DNA of 29,035 nucleotides from a virus: the IMG/VR virus record IMGVR_UViG_3300037493_001285, positions 1-29,035 of that record. One strand, 5' to 3'. Below are positions 22,656 through 26,971 of this stretch, piece after piece. Position 1 is the stretch's first letter. Each line of letters starts with the position of its first letter. Under the pieces are notes generated by a model. It had not been told where the DNA came from and did no database searches. It worked only from the letters and a program-made list of their open reading frames with translations. The position numbers and the translations under genes are program-made.

Positions 22656-23091
22656 TATAATCGAACACATTGAATACTTGACCAACAAGTCTAATAAGTT
22701 CAAAGAGATTGATGAAAGGTATTCAATAGCGGTCAATAGATGGTTCTTATGTGGTGGTGAATTGCGTTCAAATGAAATAGCAAACTACCTTGACATTAAC
22801 CACAATAAGTTAACTCTATTGATTCAGAAAAGAATGTCACTAATGACTGGTGTTGACATCAAAGACCAAGCACCTAAGATTGAAGTGATTTATAGTGAGA
22901 AAGAAATAGAAAGGCTCTACCCTAAGTCATACAGATTTGAATGGCAACCAGTATACGAATTGAACTACTATCTTTACCTTGCAAACAATTCAAGAAGTCA
23001 ACTTATACATAACTACAAAATCTTTTTAAATGAATCACGAAGCAGAGATATACAAGGTCATAGCAAGGTATCTATCAATCAAATATCCTAA
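22645..23091 (+). CDS. Hypothetical protein with HTH-like segment
   Basis: A 148-aa protein with a possible winged-helix or HTH unit at about residues 40-64 (LRSNEIANYLDINHNKLTLL). The second half is Tyr-rich (YELNYYLYLANNSRSQLIHN). It overlaps the upstream gene by 11 bases and the VRR-NUC gene by 62 bases, so the end is read in two frames. It may be a DNA-binding partner of the neighbouring nucleases. Family not recognised. Confidence 0.45.
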   Translation: MKADIIEHIEYLTNKSNKFKEIDERYSIAVNRWFLCGGELRSNEIANYLDINHNKLTLLIQKRMSLMTGVDIKDQAPKIEVIYSEKEIERLYPKSYRFEWQPVYELNYYLYLANNSRSQLIHNYKIFLNESRSRDIQGHSKVSINQIS

Positions 23092-23413
23092 GTTGATATT
23101 CAGATTTGACTTTGCTGCTGGTATGTACTTGAGTCCATATATGGCAAATAAGCATAAGGCACAGAATCCAATCAAAGGTTATCCTGATTTGTTCATTGCA
23201 CTTCCTAAAGGTAACTTTGCTGGTCTATTCGTTGAGATTAAAAATGACAAGGCTAACCCATTTAAGAAAGATGGTACATTGAAATCAGGTGACCATTTAG
23301 AAAGACAAGCAGAGGTACTTAAAGCATTAAATGAAGTTGGTTATGCTGCTTTATTTTCAACTGGTGTAGACGAAACAATAAAAGTTATTGAAAGCTATTT
23401 GAATCAAAAATAA
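23030..23413 (+). CDS. VRR-NUC domain nuclease
   Basis: A 127-aa single-domain nuclease. The VRR-NUC signs are Glu4 in the first helix, GYPDLFI (50-56) with Asp53, GLFVEIKND with Glu69-x-Lys71, and ERQAEVLKALNEVGY with Gln93. Stand-alone phage VRR-NUC proteins cut structured or branched DNA and may act as Holliday-junction resolvases or helpers in recombination. It starts inside the end of the previous gene. Its end carries the -33 element of the promoter for the RNA at 23432. Confidence 0.82.
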   Translation: MNHEAEIYKVIARYLSIKYPKLIFRFDFAAGMYLSPYMANKHKAQNPIKGYPDLFIALPKGNFAGLFVEIKNDKANPFKKDGTLKSGDHLERQAEVLKALNEVGYAALFSTGVDETIKVIESYLNQK

Positions 23414-23426
23414 AATTTTATATTTG
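23398..23426 (+). promoter_or_regulatory. Promoter for the structured RNA
   Basis: TTTG (23398-23401), a 17-nt spacer and a perfect TATATTTG (23419-23426). ATCAAAAA (23403-23410) lies in the spacer, as in other promoters here. The RNA start is expected near 23432. Confidence 0.7.
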
Positions 23427-23431
23427 CATCA

Positions 23432-23539
23432 TTCAGAGGTAGTAGCCTGAATGGATTAAAAAAAATTGTCGCCCTATGGTGACTGCGAGACCGAGATTAA
23501 TTCAAGGTCGCTACTACCGCAGTCTTCATAGGGCTTTTT
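23432..23539 (+). ncRNA. Structured RNA with candidate pseudoknot and terminator
   Basis: No gene lies in this gap. P1 is a 7-bp hairpin (23430-23436 with 23447-23453) with a 10-nt loop. Nine loop bases (GGTAGTAGC, 23438-23446) are perfectly complementary to 23510-23518 (GCTACTACC). After an A-rich linker comes a long helix: GCCCTATG (23471-23478) with CATAGGGC (23527-23534), and GACTGC (23481-23486) with GCAGTC (23519-23524). Inside it is a small GACC/GGTC stem (23489-23492 with 23506-23509). Five T follow the helix (23535-23539), making it a terminator. The pairing of the P1 loop to the strand beside the helix would form a pseudoknot. With the upstream promoter, this looks like an independent RNA of about 105 nt. 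It matches no RNA family I know, though a leader or attenuator for 23553 is possible. Confidence 0.7.
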
Positions 23540-23552
23540 AATTCTAAATATT

Positions 23553-23882
23553 ATGACAACAAATCTTGAAAAAATGACTAAGTGGGAAGTTCAAAAGGCA
23601 ACTTTCCTAATCTTAATGGCAAAGGATTTAGAAATGGATATCCATTGCTATGGTGAATTGGATGTAAACCAAAATAGTGGATATACCTATTTATGGCTGG
23701 AAGATTATGACTTTACTCTTTATCTTCCTATTAATTGTGATTTGAAAAGAGAGGAAGTTTATGTATTGTGGACAAACCATCATACTGGTGAAGAGATAGA
23801 AGAATCATTAGATGAATTTAATGATTTGCAAGACATTAATGAATGGGTAAAAAAATTAGAAAATGAACATGGACTCTCGTAA
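23553..23882 (+). CDS. Small acidic hypothetical protein
   Basis: A 109-aa acidic protein (many Asp and Glu). It is alpha/beta: an N-terminal helix (KWEVQKATFLILMAKDLEMD), strands (YTYLWLEDYDFTLYLPI), and an acidic C-terminal helix (EEIEESLDEFNDLQDINEW). No family or catalytic motif. Acidic small phage proteins sometimes mimic DNA, but nothing here proves it. It starts 13 bases after the RNA terminator, so its expression may depend on read-through. It overlaps the next gene by 20 bases. Confidence 0.5.
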   Translation: MTTNLEKMTKWEVQKATFLILMAKDLEMDIHCYGELDVNQNSGYTYLWLEDYDFTLYLPINCDLKREEVYVLWTNHHTGEEIEESLDEFNDLQDINEWVKKLENEHGLS

Positions 23883-24501
23883 TACTTGCATCTTTTATCG
23901 TTCAATGTTTGAATCAATAAAAGAACTACCTAAAGAGAATCAGGCTGAGTTATACAATGCCATCTTTGAATACTCATTAGACTTTGTTGAACCATCATTA
24001 AGTGGTCTATCATTAACTATATGGAGACTCATAAGACCAGTATTGGAGAAAGGTAATACTAACTATATCAATGGAAGTAAACCAAAATCAAAGCAAACAA
24101 TAAGCGAATCAGAAGCGAAAGTTAAGCGAAATGAAAGCGAAAGCCAAGCCTATAAGGATAAGGATAAAGATAAGGATGAAGATATAGATAAGGATAAAGT
24201 TATTAGTGCTAAAGCAACATCATTCAAGTATTATAATCATCAAGACCTAATCAACCAAATGAAACCACTAATAGATAAGTTTGGCAAAGATACTTGTAAT
24301 GCTTTCTACTCTTATTGGTCTGAGCCATTAGCCAATGGTAAGATGAGATTGACTAATGAGAAGGCTTGGGATACACATAGAAGGTTATCATCTTGGAAAC
24401 AAAGAGAGAAACAACCTAATAACAACTTTGTCAAACAACCACAACCAGTATTCAATCGTTCATCTCAAGGTCAGAAATATGTAGGTGACGATGTAATCTA
24501 A
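23863..24501 (+). CDS. DUF6291-like probable replication initiator
   Basis: A 212-aa protein. The N-terminal 65 residues (CIFYRSMFESIKELPKENQA, then ELYNAIFEYSLDF and LTIWRLIRPVLEKGN) fit the DUF6291-type helical domain of phage and mobile-element replication proteins. Residues 70-112 are a low-complexity linker: Ser/Glu/Lys-rich, then KDKDKDKDEDIDKDK. The C-terminal part (about 115-212) is helical (FYSYWSEPLANGKMRLTNEK, RLSSWKQREK), like the helicase-loading end of replisome organisers. The linker DNA holds phased iteron-like repeats (24091-24152) and an A/T-rich hexamer repeat, as in phage lambda, where the origin lies in the O gene. It precedes the helicase gene by two genes. Function inferred from these features. 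Confidence 0.6.
   Translation: MNMDSRNTCIFYRSMFESIKELPKENQAELYNAIFEYSLDFVEPSLSGLSLTIWRLIRPVLEKGNTNYINGSKPKSKQTISESEAKVKRNESESQAYKDKDKDKDEDIDKDKVISAKATSFKYYNHQDLINQMKPLIDKFGKDTCNAFYSYWSEPLANGKMRLTNEKAWDTHRRLSSWKQREKQPNNNFVKQPQPVFNRSSQGQKYVGDDVI
24091..24156 (+). repeat. Six phased 11-bp iteron-like repeats
   Basis: AAGC-led units start at 24091, 24102, 24113, 24124, 24135 and 24146, exactly 11 bp apart. The middle four are AAGCGAA; the outer two are AAGCAAA and AAGCCTA. Eleven is not a multiple of 3, so the units fall in all three codon phases, and the repetition is held at DNA level. The spacing puts them on one face of the helix, as protein-binding iterons do. Confidence 0.8.
24151..24201 (+). 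repeat. A/T-rich GATAAG-type hexamer repeat
   Basis: Directly after the iteron-like array lies an in-frame hexamer repeat (AAGGAT / AAAGAT variants) coding the KDKDKDKD linker. Very A/T-rich and purine-biased on this strand, it could be the duplex-unwinding element of an origin, or simply a charged linker. Confidence 0.6.
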
Positions 24502-24505
24502 AATT

Positions 24506-25318
24506 ATGAAAACTATAAACTCACTATCAGGCGGTAAAACATCATCATATATGGCTTACCATTACCCAGCAGATTATAATATATTTTCTTTAGTCACTAT
24601 CGAAAATGTTAGATGTTCACCTAATGACAAAGGTCTTATTAAAATTATCTCAGATAAGATTGGCAAAGAATTTATTGCTACTGCAGAAGATGATAAGACA
24701 CTTGTTGTCATTTTAGAACTTGAGCAGTTAATAGGTCAAGAAATCATATGGGTAAGTGGTAACACGTTTGATTCAATAATAAATAAAAAAAAAATATTGC
24801 CTAATTCATTGACAAGGTTCTGTACATCAGAAATGAAAATGAGACCTATTTGGGATTGGTGGTATAAAAATATTAATGAAAAGATTAAAATGGGTATTGG
24901 TTACCGATGGGATGAAATGGAAAGAGCCGAAAGACTAACTAACACATTTAAAGGAATAGTAGGTAAATCAAGCAACGGAAGGAATAAATGGAAAGAGATT
25001 GAATGGAGGCAAGGATATTTTCCACTAATTGAAAATAAGATAACACACTTACCAGTTAAATTATGGGCAAACTCAACCAGTCTTGAATTTCCAAGTGATA
25101 GTAATTGTGTAGGGTGTTTCCACAAATCTAAGGAACAACTAAGAAAAAACTATGAAGACAACCAACAAAAAATGCAATGGTTCATTGACCAAGAAGCTAA
25201 ATATAAAAGCACTTGGAAAAATGGAATGAGTTACAAAAACATATCTAAGTTAGGGTTGCAACTTGATTTTAATTATGGTGGAGGTGCTGGGTGTCAAGGT
25301 GGATTCTGCACCGATTAA
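24506..25318 (+). CDS. PP-loop ATPase of the PAPS-reductase/DndC type
   Basis: A 270-aa protein beginning with the N-type ATP pyrophosphatase P-loop LSGGKTSSYMA (SGGKTS, residues 8-13). Further family-like segments are RFCTSEMKMRP (105-114) and NCVGCFHKSKEQLRKN. Cys106, Cys201-x2-Cys204 and a C-terminal pair (Cys263-x4-Cys268, in GAGCQGGFCTD) could hold an iron-sulfur cluster, as in DndC and some tRNA thiolases. Such enzymes activate a substrate with ATP or handle sulfur. Phage versions are common; their substrate is mostly unknown. A role in nucleic-acid modification is possible. It sits between the probable initiator and the helicase. No dndB, D or E gene is nearby, so classical phosphorothioation is not supported. 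Confidence 0.72.
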   Translation: MKTINSLSGGKTSSYMAYHYPADYNIFSLVTIENVRCSPNDKGLIKIISDKIGKEFIATAEDDKTLVVILELEQLIGQEIIWVSGNTFDSIINKKKILPNSLTRFCTSEMKMRPIWDWWYKNINEKIKMGIGYRWDEMERAERLTNTFKGIVGKSSNGRNKWKEIEWRQGYFPLIENKITHLPVKLWANSTSLEFPSDSNCVGCFHKSKEQLRKNYEDNQQKMQWFIDQEAKYKSTWKNGMSYKNISKLGLQLDFNYGGGAGCQGGFCTD

Positions 25319-25400: not shown

Positions 25401-25583
25401 ATGAGAAAATTCGCAAAGTACCAACAGAATCTATGTCACGATTATGAATTCATTTATTCATACAAAACTAAAGTAGCTAAGATAACAGACGATGGTGTTG
25501 TTAAATTAGGCTACTGGTCTATGACAACATCAAAGCATATAAATTATGCTGCTAAGGAATTAAATTCATACGTAAGACAATGA
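25401..25583 (+). CDS. Small conserved-looking protein before helicase
   Basis: A 60-aa protein behind its own promoter. Basic, with YQQNLCHDYEFIYSYKTKVA and a Trp-containing YWSMTTSKHINYAAKELN end, a phrase I associate with small Bacteroidetes phage proteins. It overlaps the helicase gene by ATGA. Function unknown; the coupling suggests a link to replication. Confidence 0.55.
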   Translation: MRKFAKYQQNLCHDYEFIYSYKTKVAKITDDGVVKLGYWSMTTSKHINYAAKELNSYVRQ

Positions 25584-26971
25584 TGACTAACCCACAACAA
25601 GCACTCATAGGTATTCTGATGACTGGTGAGACACATCAGGAACTAATACCACAACTTGGTGAGCATCTCTTCAATGAGGTGCTTACCTCAAGGTGTTATG
25701 TAGTAATCAAGAAAACGATTGACAAAGGACTTACTCCTAACATAGTCAATTTCTTTATGACTGCTAAGGACATTGATAAGTTCACACCTAAAGAAATATC
25801 TGAAATAGTTACTTGGTCAAACAACTTGACCTATAATGAACCAGTTAACGAATACATTGCCATACTTAAAGATAATCACATCAAGAGGTCAATAGCATCA
25901 ATTGTAACTGAGCAGTCATTAGGTCTTGTTAATACTGATGGTTTCACAACTGCTACATCAATCATCAAATCATTAACTGATTTACTTGATACTGGTTCTA
26001 ACTCTGATAATATTATTGACCTTTCACAATTGACTAATGAAGAACGTGAATCATATTACAGAAGAGCAGCACTAACATTATCTGGTAAGACTACTGGACT
26101 TGAGACTGGGTTAAAGTCACTTAATAAGTTTACTGGTGGATTCCATCCCGAATTCATAATTATTGCTGGTAGACCATCAATGGGTAAGACTGCACTTGCA
26201 CTATTTCACGGAATGAAAAGTGGTGAGGCTGGAATCTATTTTAATCTTGAGATGAATAAGAGCCAACTATGTCAAAGGTTAATACTACAAGAGGCTGGTG
26301 ACTCAATACATTCTTCAAGACTCAGAGACGGCAATCTTAGTCAATCTGAACTGCACTCATTTGAAAAGACCATTGGCAGCATTGAGAAAGCACCATTTCT
26401 AATCTATGACAAAGCAAGGTGTGGAGTCCACGAGGCAATAAGGGTAATGAAGAGAGAGCATCGTAAAGGAAGATGCAAGTGGGCAATTATTGACTATCTT
26501 CAATTGATGACCATAGAAGGCTTTAAAGGAGGTAATCGTGAAGCAGAGGTAGCTGAGATAAGTAGAACATTAAAAGCAGCACAGAAAGAACTTGGAATAC
26601 CAATTATAGCATTAGCACAATTGAGTAGGGAGGTAGAAAAAAGAGCAGATAAAAAACCAATATTATCTGACTTGAGAGAATCAGGGTCATTAGAGCAAGA
26701 TGCTGATAGTGTAGCCTTTGTTTGGAGACCATCATACTATGGATTGAATGATGATGATGGTAACCCATACACCAATCACATCTTCTATCTATTTGAGAAA
26801 CATCGTCAAGGTGCAACGGGTGTAGTTGAGTTCAGACATTCACCAAATATGACCAACTTTACAGATGTTACCACTCACGAGATTGGTAGTACATTTTTAC
26901 CTCAACCTAAAGACCTAAGACATTATGCAGACAAAGACTGGGATAAAGAAACCGACCATACACCTTTCTGA
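25580..26971 (+). CDS. dnaB-like: Replicative DNA helicase, DnaB type
   Basis: A 463-aa hexameric helicase of the usual DnaB length. The N-terminal helical domain (NPQQALIGILMTGETHQELI and onwards to about 110) is followed by a linker and the RecA-like core: Walker A GRPSMGKTA (197-205), Walker B WAIIDYLQLM (301-310), LAQLSREVEKRADKKP (345-360) and DLRESGSLEQDADSVAFVWR (364-383), which carries the conserved glutamine/arginine-finger region. It unwinds DNA at the phage fork. The ATG overlaps the previous stop (ATGA); the second ATG at 25583 is an equal start. No primase is seen in the window. Confidence 0.93.
   Translation: MMTNPQQALIGILMTGETHQELIPQLGEHLFNEVLTSRCYVVIKKTIDKGLTPNIVNFFMTAKDIDKFTPKEISEIVTWSNNLTYNEPVNEYIAILKDNHIKRSIASIVTEQSLGLVNTDGFTTATSIIKSLTDLLDTGSNSDNIIDLSQLTNEERESYYRRAALTLSGKTTGLETGLKSLNKFTGGFHPEFIIIAGRPSMGKTALALFHGMKSGEAGIYFNLEMNKSQLCQRLILQEAGDSIHSSRLRDGNLSQSELHSFEKTIGSIEKAPFLIYDKARCGVHEAIRVMKREHRKGRCKWAIIDYLQLMTIEGFKGGNREAEVAEISRTLKAAQKELGIPIIALAQLSREVEKRADKKPILSDLRESGSLEQDADSVAFVWRPSYYGLNDDDGNPYTNHIFYLFEKHRQGATGVVEFRHSPNMTNFTDVTTHEIGSTFLPQPKDLRHYADKDWDKETDHTPF

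Follow-up and report, generated by a model that had tools for sequence, protein, structure and literature searches.

A probable structured leader RNA with a covarying loop-loop pairing at the head of replication operons in Bacteroidota-type phages

RNA control in phages of Bacteroidota is poorly known. A stretch of ∼105 bases in one such phage is, in our judgement, an undescribed structured leader RNA, either an attenuator or a dual small RNA and leader, with a kissing-loop pseudoknot, and it would give these phages a common structured leader at the head of their replication operons. The phage is of Bacteroidota type and comes from an IMG/VR virus record of 29,035 bases; the window analysed here is the whole record. 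In the reading that we favour with somewhat better than even confidence, the RNA is the 5′ leader of a phage replication operon, forms the pseudoknot, and is mostly terminated, with regulated or leaky read-through into the genes behind it.

Results

Layout of the element

The element lies between a nuclease gene (23030-23413) and a gene for a protein of 109 amino acids that starts at 23553. Its parts follow one another as a TATATTTG box, hairpin P1, an A-rich linker, a terminator helix consisting of P2a, a 2x2 internal loop and P2b, and a U tract. The P2 helix encloses a small stem, P3, together with a strand complementary to the loop of P1. The features of the locus, with the evidence for each, are:

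23030-23413: small nuclease gene, Holliday-junction-resolvase-like, upstream neighbour of the RNA
23419..23426, + strand: -7 box TATATTTG of a predicted Bacteroidota sigma-A promoter (sequence; box in homologues; published consensus)
23430..23453, + strand: hairpin P1, covarying stem 23430-23436/23447-23453 (CATTCAG/CTGAATG), loop 23437-23446 AGGTAGTAGC
23439..23446, + strand: 5′ strand of the pseudoknot, GUAGUAGC, within the P1 loop (covariation, 584/584 cells Watson-Crick)
23454..23470, + strand: A-rich linker, consensus AAAACATT (alignments A1 and A2)
23471..23487, + strand: 5′ half of the terminator helix, P2a 23471-23478 and P2b 23481-23487 with the 2x2 internal loop between them (covariation)
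23489..23509, + strand: P3 (23489-23492/23506-23509) and a small apical stem, variable, absent in subfamily 2
23510..23517, + strand: 3′ strand of the pseudoknot, GCUACUAC, inside the terminator hairpin (covariation)
23518..23534, + strand: 3′ half of the terminator helix, P2b 23518-23524 and P2a 23527-23534 (covariation)
23535..23539, + strand: U tract of the predicted intrinsic terminator (sequence; U-rich stretch in homologues)
23553..23882, + strand: small gene, 109 amino acids, between the RNA and the replication gene, start codon 18 nt past the hairpin (no Pfam or PHROGs family match)
23863..24501, + strand: DUF6291 protein, likely replication initiator (PF19808, E 5e-14; downstream of the RNA in 41/41 contexts)
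25580..26971, + strand: DnaB-type replicative helicase, same operon (PF03796, E 2.5e-74)

An initial annotation, made from the letters of the window, had described a promoter box, P1 and its loop, a composite helix (23471-23487/23518-23534) and a U tract, and all were recovered where it had placed them. Its remark that no gene lies within the element also holds, the ORF list containing none of at least 40 amino acids there. In the window sequence, P1 has a 7-bp stem and a 10-base loop, and the folding energy of the element (z = -4.3) was equalled in 0 of 200 shuffles. A hairpin loop with at least 8 complementary bases elsewhere arose in 0.7% of dinucleotide shuffles and one with at least 9 in 0.2%. 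The multiple exact pairings had been called unlikely by chance; taken from the window sequence alone the loop complementarity is only suggestive, and it was covariation among homologues that settled the matter.

The promoter and terminator are predicted elements, read from sequence. All 74 aligned homologues have the box, placed 9-12 nt ahead of P1, and its loose consensus is TAnnTT[TA][GA]. TAnnTTTG is the -7 box of sigma-A promoters in Flavobacterium and Bacteroides, with its G at -5 (PMC6847099, PMC9723704), so the RNA is predicted to start at ∼23431, at P1. No TAnnTTTG box was found inside the RNA in the 74 aligned homologues. At the other end, a G+C-rich hairpin is followed by a U tract, as in intrinsic terminators; P2 covaries, and a U-rich stretch follows it in homologues. 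A simple terminator scan misses the predicted terminator because it allows loops of 3-8 only.

Covariation of the loop pairing among homologues

We fetched 55 related loci through the upstream nuclease gene, disregarding the RNA, and in many of them the RNA lies directly behind that gene. These loci and a pattern scan gave alignment A1, with 37 distinct RNAs. A covariance model built without the pseudoknot retrieved more divergent copies, some of which had lost the seeding pattern, and alignment A2, on which the pseudoknot was likewise not imposed, holds 74 sequences.

Across 73 distinct homologues in A2, the pseudoknot is paired and Watson-Crick in 584/584 cells, with no G-U pair and no mismatch, and 6 of its 8 positions show double changes. 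The absence of G-U from these 584 cells contrasts with shares of 7.9% in P1 and 3.0% in P2. In the same alignment P1 has double changes in all 7 pairs, and P2 is paired in 99.9% of cells with double changes in 10/15 pairs. When the structure was slid along the alignment as a control, only about 29-45% of cells were paired (28-45% over the alignments taken together), and the covariation score was reached by 0/500 shuffles. Loop and partner change together, for example as GGTAGTAGC/GCTACTACC, GGTCGTATC/GATACGACC, GGTGGTATC/GATACCACC and ACTGGAATC/GATTCCAGC, among others. The covariance search in related phages that the initial annotation had proposed as a check thus returned compensating changes in both pairing strands, and these homologues confirm, by comparative sequence analysis, that the loop-strand pairing is real.

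The pairing was first reported with nine bases, its downstream stretch being GCTACTACC at 23510-23518. It is indeed perfect in the homologues, but its true length is 8 bp (23439-23446 with 23510-23517), because C23518 belongs to the P2b stem, where it pairs with G23487 in 37/37 A1 sequences, and a ninth loop pair fails in four of them. A switch in which P1 and the nine-base pairing compete had also been suggested. Against it, every homologue preserves the two helices, and with the geometry of the window RNA (L1 2 nt, L2 0 nt) an H-type or kissing-loop pseudoknot can accommodate both without steric conflict. P3 and the internal loops, by comparison, vary or vanish among homologues.

The pairing strands occur as 16 alleles within one subfamily, and a tree of 57 downstream proteins requires at least 31 allele changes, a count sensitive to the shortness of the protein alignment and to possible recombination among the contigs. 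Two sister RNAs (L296 and L297) differ by one base elsewhere and by two complete base pairs in the pseudoknot. Strict complementarity combined with so many allele changes suggests loop-specific RNA-RNA recognition. One way in which this might operate, possible although we hold it only tentatively, is that the terminated leader uses its complementary loops to act, in trans, on leaders of the same phage that are still being transcribed, for copy-number sensing or for immunity to related phages. Both pairing strands lie in hairpin loops and can therefore pair between molecules; the strictly Watson-Crick pairing, the number of alleles and of changes on the tree, and near-identical RNAs with different alleles all fit such control. 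The phage DNA searched held 10 matches that could mark a second phage target of the loop, where ∼13 were expected, and this lack of an excess also agrees with it. A purely cis pairing that drifts would, however, give the same pattern.

Genomic context of the RNA

Homologous loci typically run from promoter box through P1, A-rich linker, terminator hairpin and U tract to a start codon, usually followed by a helicase gene. The first start codon, usually 9-20 nt past the hairpin, is that of the DUF6291 gene or of a small gene before it. In 41/41 distinct contexts a DUF6291 gene lies downstream, directly or behind one small gene, mostly with a DnaB helicase gene next, and the upstream genes differ among these 41 contexts. 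When contigs were fetched by the DUF6291 protein alone, the RNA stood in front of the gene in 45/50. It was absent from the leaders of DUF6291 homologues in Riemerella phages and from contigs L304, L309, L310, L313 and L315. In the window, a PAPS-reductase-like gene (24506-25318) separates the DUF6291 gene from the DnaB helicase gene.

The start codon lies 6-20 nt past the terminator hairpin in 71/74 homologues. This leaves hardly any space for a separate promoter of the downstream gene, whose expression therefore probably relies on polymerase reading through the terminator. With a start codon so close and no room for a second promoter, the element reads as a replication-operon leader and not as an independent gene. 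The initial annotation had called it an independent RNA, which does not agree with its constant place at the head of an operon, nearly always one of replication genes, or with a start codon that follows the terminator by a few bases. A related possibility, which we regard as unlikely, is that it is a stable small RNA in its own right, with a protein or a host RNA as its target, and that its place before replication genes is due only to a shared early promoter region. Such an RNA would account for the compact fold closed at both ends and for its own promoter box and terminator; the close and constant start codon and the near-constant linkage to replication genes argue against it, as does the fact that, apart from the A-rich linker and a few purines, no unpaired core is conserved. 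The RNA may nonetheless have a protein or a host RNA as an additional target.

The DUF6291 protein is a likely replication initiator. Its structure model is all-helical and of low confidence (pLDDT 67), and no PDB match to the model was found, so the assignment draws on gene order and on Phg_2220_C-like C-termini in relatives. DUF6291 proteins (window 23863-24501; L380, L353, L371, L340 and others) keep their N-terminal domain and exchange their C-terminal domains, Phg_2220_C-like or others, suggesting that they are modular replication initiators. The constant DUF6291 partner in the first subfamily, together with the leader position, the pseudoknot and the A-rich linker, might also point to autoregulation by this protein or to a riboswitch sensing a ligand or protein. 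We consider this improbable, since the RNA also heads operons in which DUF6291 is not the first replication gene, the internal loops and P3 are too variable to leave a visible conserved binding pocket, and no Rfam riboswitch was matched.

A second subfamily and isolated phages

Relatives of Cellulophaga phage phi19:3 gp007 (DUF6291) yielded leaders of a second subfamily, with the same plan and unrelated loops, such as CATCCGAC/GTCGGATG, GCTCTCAC/GTGAGAGC, CCTTCGAC/GTCGAAGG and GGCTGGAC/GTCCAGCC. In these RNAs P3 is missing and P2b closes the apical loop of the terminator hairpin; this loop is itself the pairing strand, so a true kissing loop is predicted. Of the 94 distinct leaders of these genes, 53 have the terminator near the start codon, and in 48 of the 53 the P1 loop is complementary to the terminator interior, two of these (L363 and L401) looking like chance. 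At least 8 complementary nt were present in 12/26 leaders, against 1.05 expected from a shuffle control. In an alignment of 25 leaders, P1, the pseudoknot and P2b are paired in 425/425 cells; the leaders had been selected in part on P1 and the pseudoknot, but not on P2b. A pattern scan that avoided the pairing strands fetched 28 leaders, and in each of the 27 whose P1 could be read, 7-9 nt are complementary.

The first genes downstream of these pattern-fetched leaders vary and encode DUF6291, another initiator-like protein with a Phg_2220_C-like end, small proteins, or NUMOD4-type endonucleases followed by a PriCT-1 primase. The same plan heads replication or early operons in many IMG/VR contigs, and it occurs in isolated phages, in which it can be tested directly. 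Flavobacterium phages elemoA, lillamy9-1, hemulen6-2 and 11b carry the RNA before DUF6291 genes, with a small gene in between in the first three. In Tenacibaculum phage Gundel_1 (L561 2515-2613) it precedes an AntA/KilAC antirepressor gene; the loop allele of this phage, GCTCTCAC, is that of many metagenome contigs. The leader module thus appears to move between operons. An antirepressor gene downstream counts against a strict replication-leader reading, and this gene and the varied downstream genes of the second subfamily fit a stand-alone RNA.

Searches for known families and further copies

Rfam 15 gave no match at gathering score in the window or in ten divergent homologues, and a permissive scan of 23300-23600 returned chance matches only, with no ribozyme even at E up to 5. 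No published description of the leader RNA was found in the open-access literature. With no family match, and with homologues that carry compensating changes, the initial proposal of a new structured phage RNA stands. The pistol ribozyme forms a pseudoknot with the loop of its P1, whose partner strand lies where P2 meets P3, on the 5′ side. The leader RNA resembles it in that its P1 loop also pairs near this junction, and a self-cleaving ribozyme related to pistol was considered. This is very improbable: the pairing strand (23510-23517) is on the opposite, 3′ side of the inner stem, as the initial annotation had noticed, the pairing is of 8 bp within a terminator helix, no catalytic core was found, and P3 is absent in subfamily 2. 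Type III antitoxin RNAs (ToxI, CptI) are tandem pseudoknot repeats upstream of an RNase toxin gene, and this class was rejected for the leader RNA, which is a single unit followed by genes for DUF6291, helicases and primases and not by an RNase toxin.

Comparison of the window RNA with phage records at the DNA level gave chance matches only, and a bacterial genome scan with a 15-base pattern was at about chance level among the matches listed. Covariance-model searches, run without a positive control, found no copy in 6 genomes and in 395 genomes sampled from the class (Bacteroidia) of one Bacteroidota genome. Weak covariance-model matches 2 kb downstream of the element were rejected as further copies, being inside the DnaB gene.

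Discussion

We propose that host polymerase would start at the TAnnTTTG box and that P1 would fold first, its loop capturing the complementary strand as this emerges inside the terminator hairpin. Capture would create a kissing-loop or H-type pseudoknot. Transcription would probably end at the U tract in most cases and yield a compact ∼105-nt RNA, and the operon would be expressed through regulated or leaky read-through. Because the P1 loop would reach its partner while the 3′ half of the terminator is still to be transcribed, loop-loop pairing could influence terminator folding, and we infer that it sets the fraction of read-through, in cis and/or between RNA copies. Two observations sit uneasily with the leader or attenuator reading. 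A classical attenuator would have a conserved alternative (antiterminator) fold, and no such pairing was seen across homologues, by eye or in the RNAalifold consensus. In addition, the RNA is separated from the replication gene by a small or unrelated gene in a sizeable fraction of contexts, which speaks against one particular start codon being the target of control.

Countertranscript attenuation in plasmids pT181 and pIP501 places a replication gene behind a leader terminator and uses loop-loop pairing of changeable specificity. Both properties recur in the phage leader, whose terminator is a predicted one; the plasmid systems differ in that they use a separate antisense RNA, whereas no conserved antisense promoter was noticed at the phage loci. 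A phage parallel is the CI RNA of satellite phage P4, which stops transcription of the P4 replication genes (PMC4825925). It too is a small phage RNA from a replication-operon leader with complementary stretches in the same leader, and it acts by premature termination (PMC4825925), for which the leader RNA has a predicted terminator. The silencing of P4 replication genes by RNA-mediated premature termination (PMC4825925) is in keeping with control in trans. Complementarity to sites in the replication leader is found in all homologues, but both sites lie in one RNA. The P4 RNA, in contrast, undergoes processing, and the two separate sites with which it pairs lie beyond its own hairpin, which weakens the case for trans control; the partner in the leader RNA is inside its own terminator hairpin, and no sequence or family relation between the two was seen. 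IsrK RNA of the Salmonella prophage Gifsy-1 likewise combines a short terminated RNA and a read-through mRNA from one promoter, and its short form can act on its own long read-through form (PMC4825925). Structure, host and genes differ, and IsrK acts on translation of a downstream ORF.

By analogy with P4 CI RNA, the leader RNA could perhaps serve copy-number or immunity control, which we offer as conjecture. Loops that are hypervariable and yet strictly complementary raise the question of RNA addresses for copy control or exclusion among phages. It is conceivable, at a probability we would put near one in several, that a widespread undescribed system exists in which the replication leader gives every phage a kissing-loop ‘address’ of its own, and terminated leaders, by pairing with nascent ones, sense gene copy number or exclude phages with the same address.

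Other terminator arrangements were seen at related loci. In six contigs (L008, L013, L026, L033, L035 and L044), a second conserved hairpin/terminator, TTGACACGATGTCAATGGGGTGGGCGGTTGTTAG...CTAATTGAACTGCCCACTTTTTT, lies directly behind the nuclease gene and before the helicase gene; it replaces the loop-loop RNA there (e.g. L013 ∼2224-2330), which is found further downstream. In Cellulophaga phages phi19:3 (L321 2440-2545) and phi13:2 (L318 2446-2550), the DUF6291 leader is differently arranged and contains two interleaved perfect 9-bp helices, CTCTCACAA/TTGTGAGAG and ACCGCTAAA/TTTAGCGGT, the second being the terminator. As a lead only, this arrangement may be a pseudoknotted terminator of another topology.
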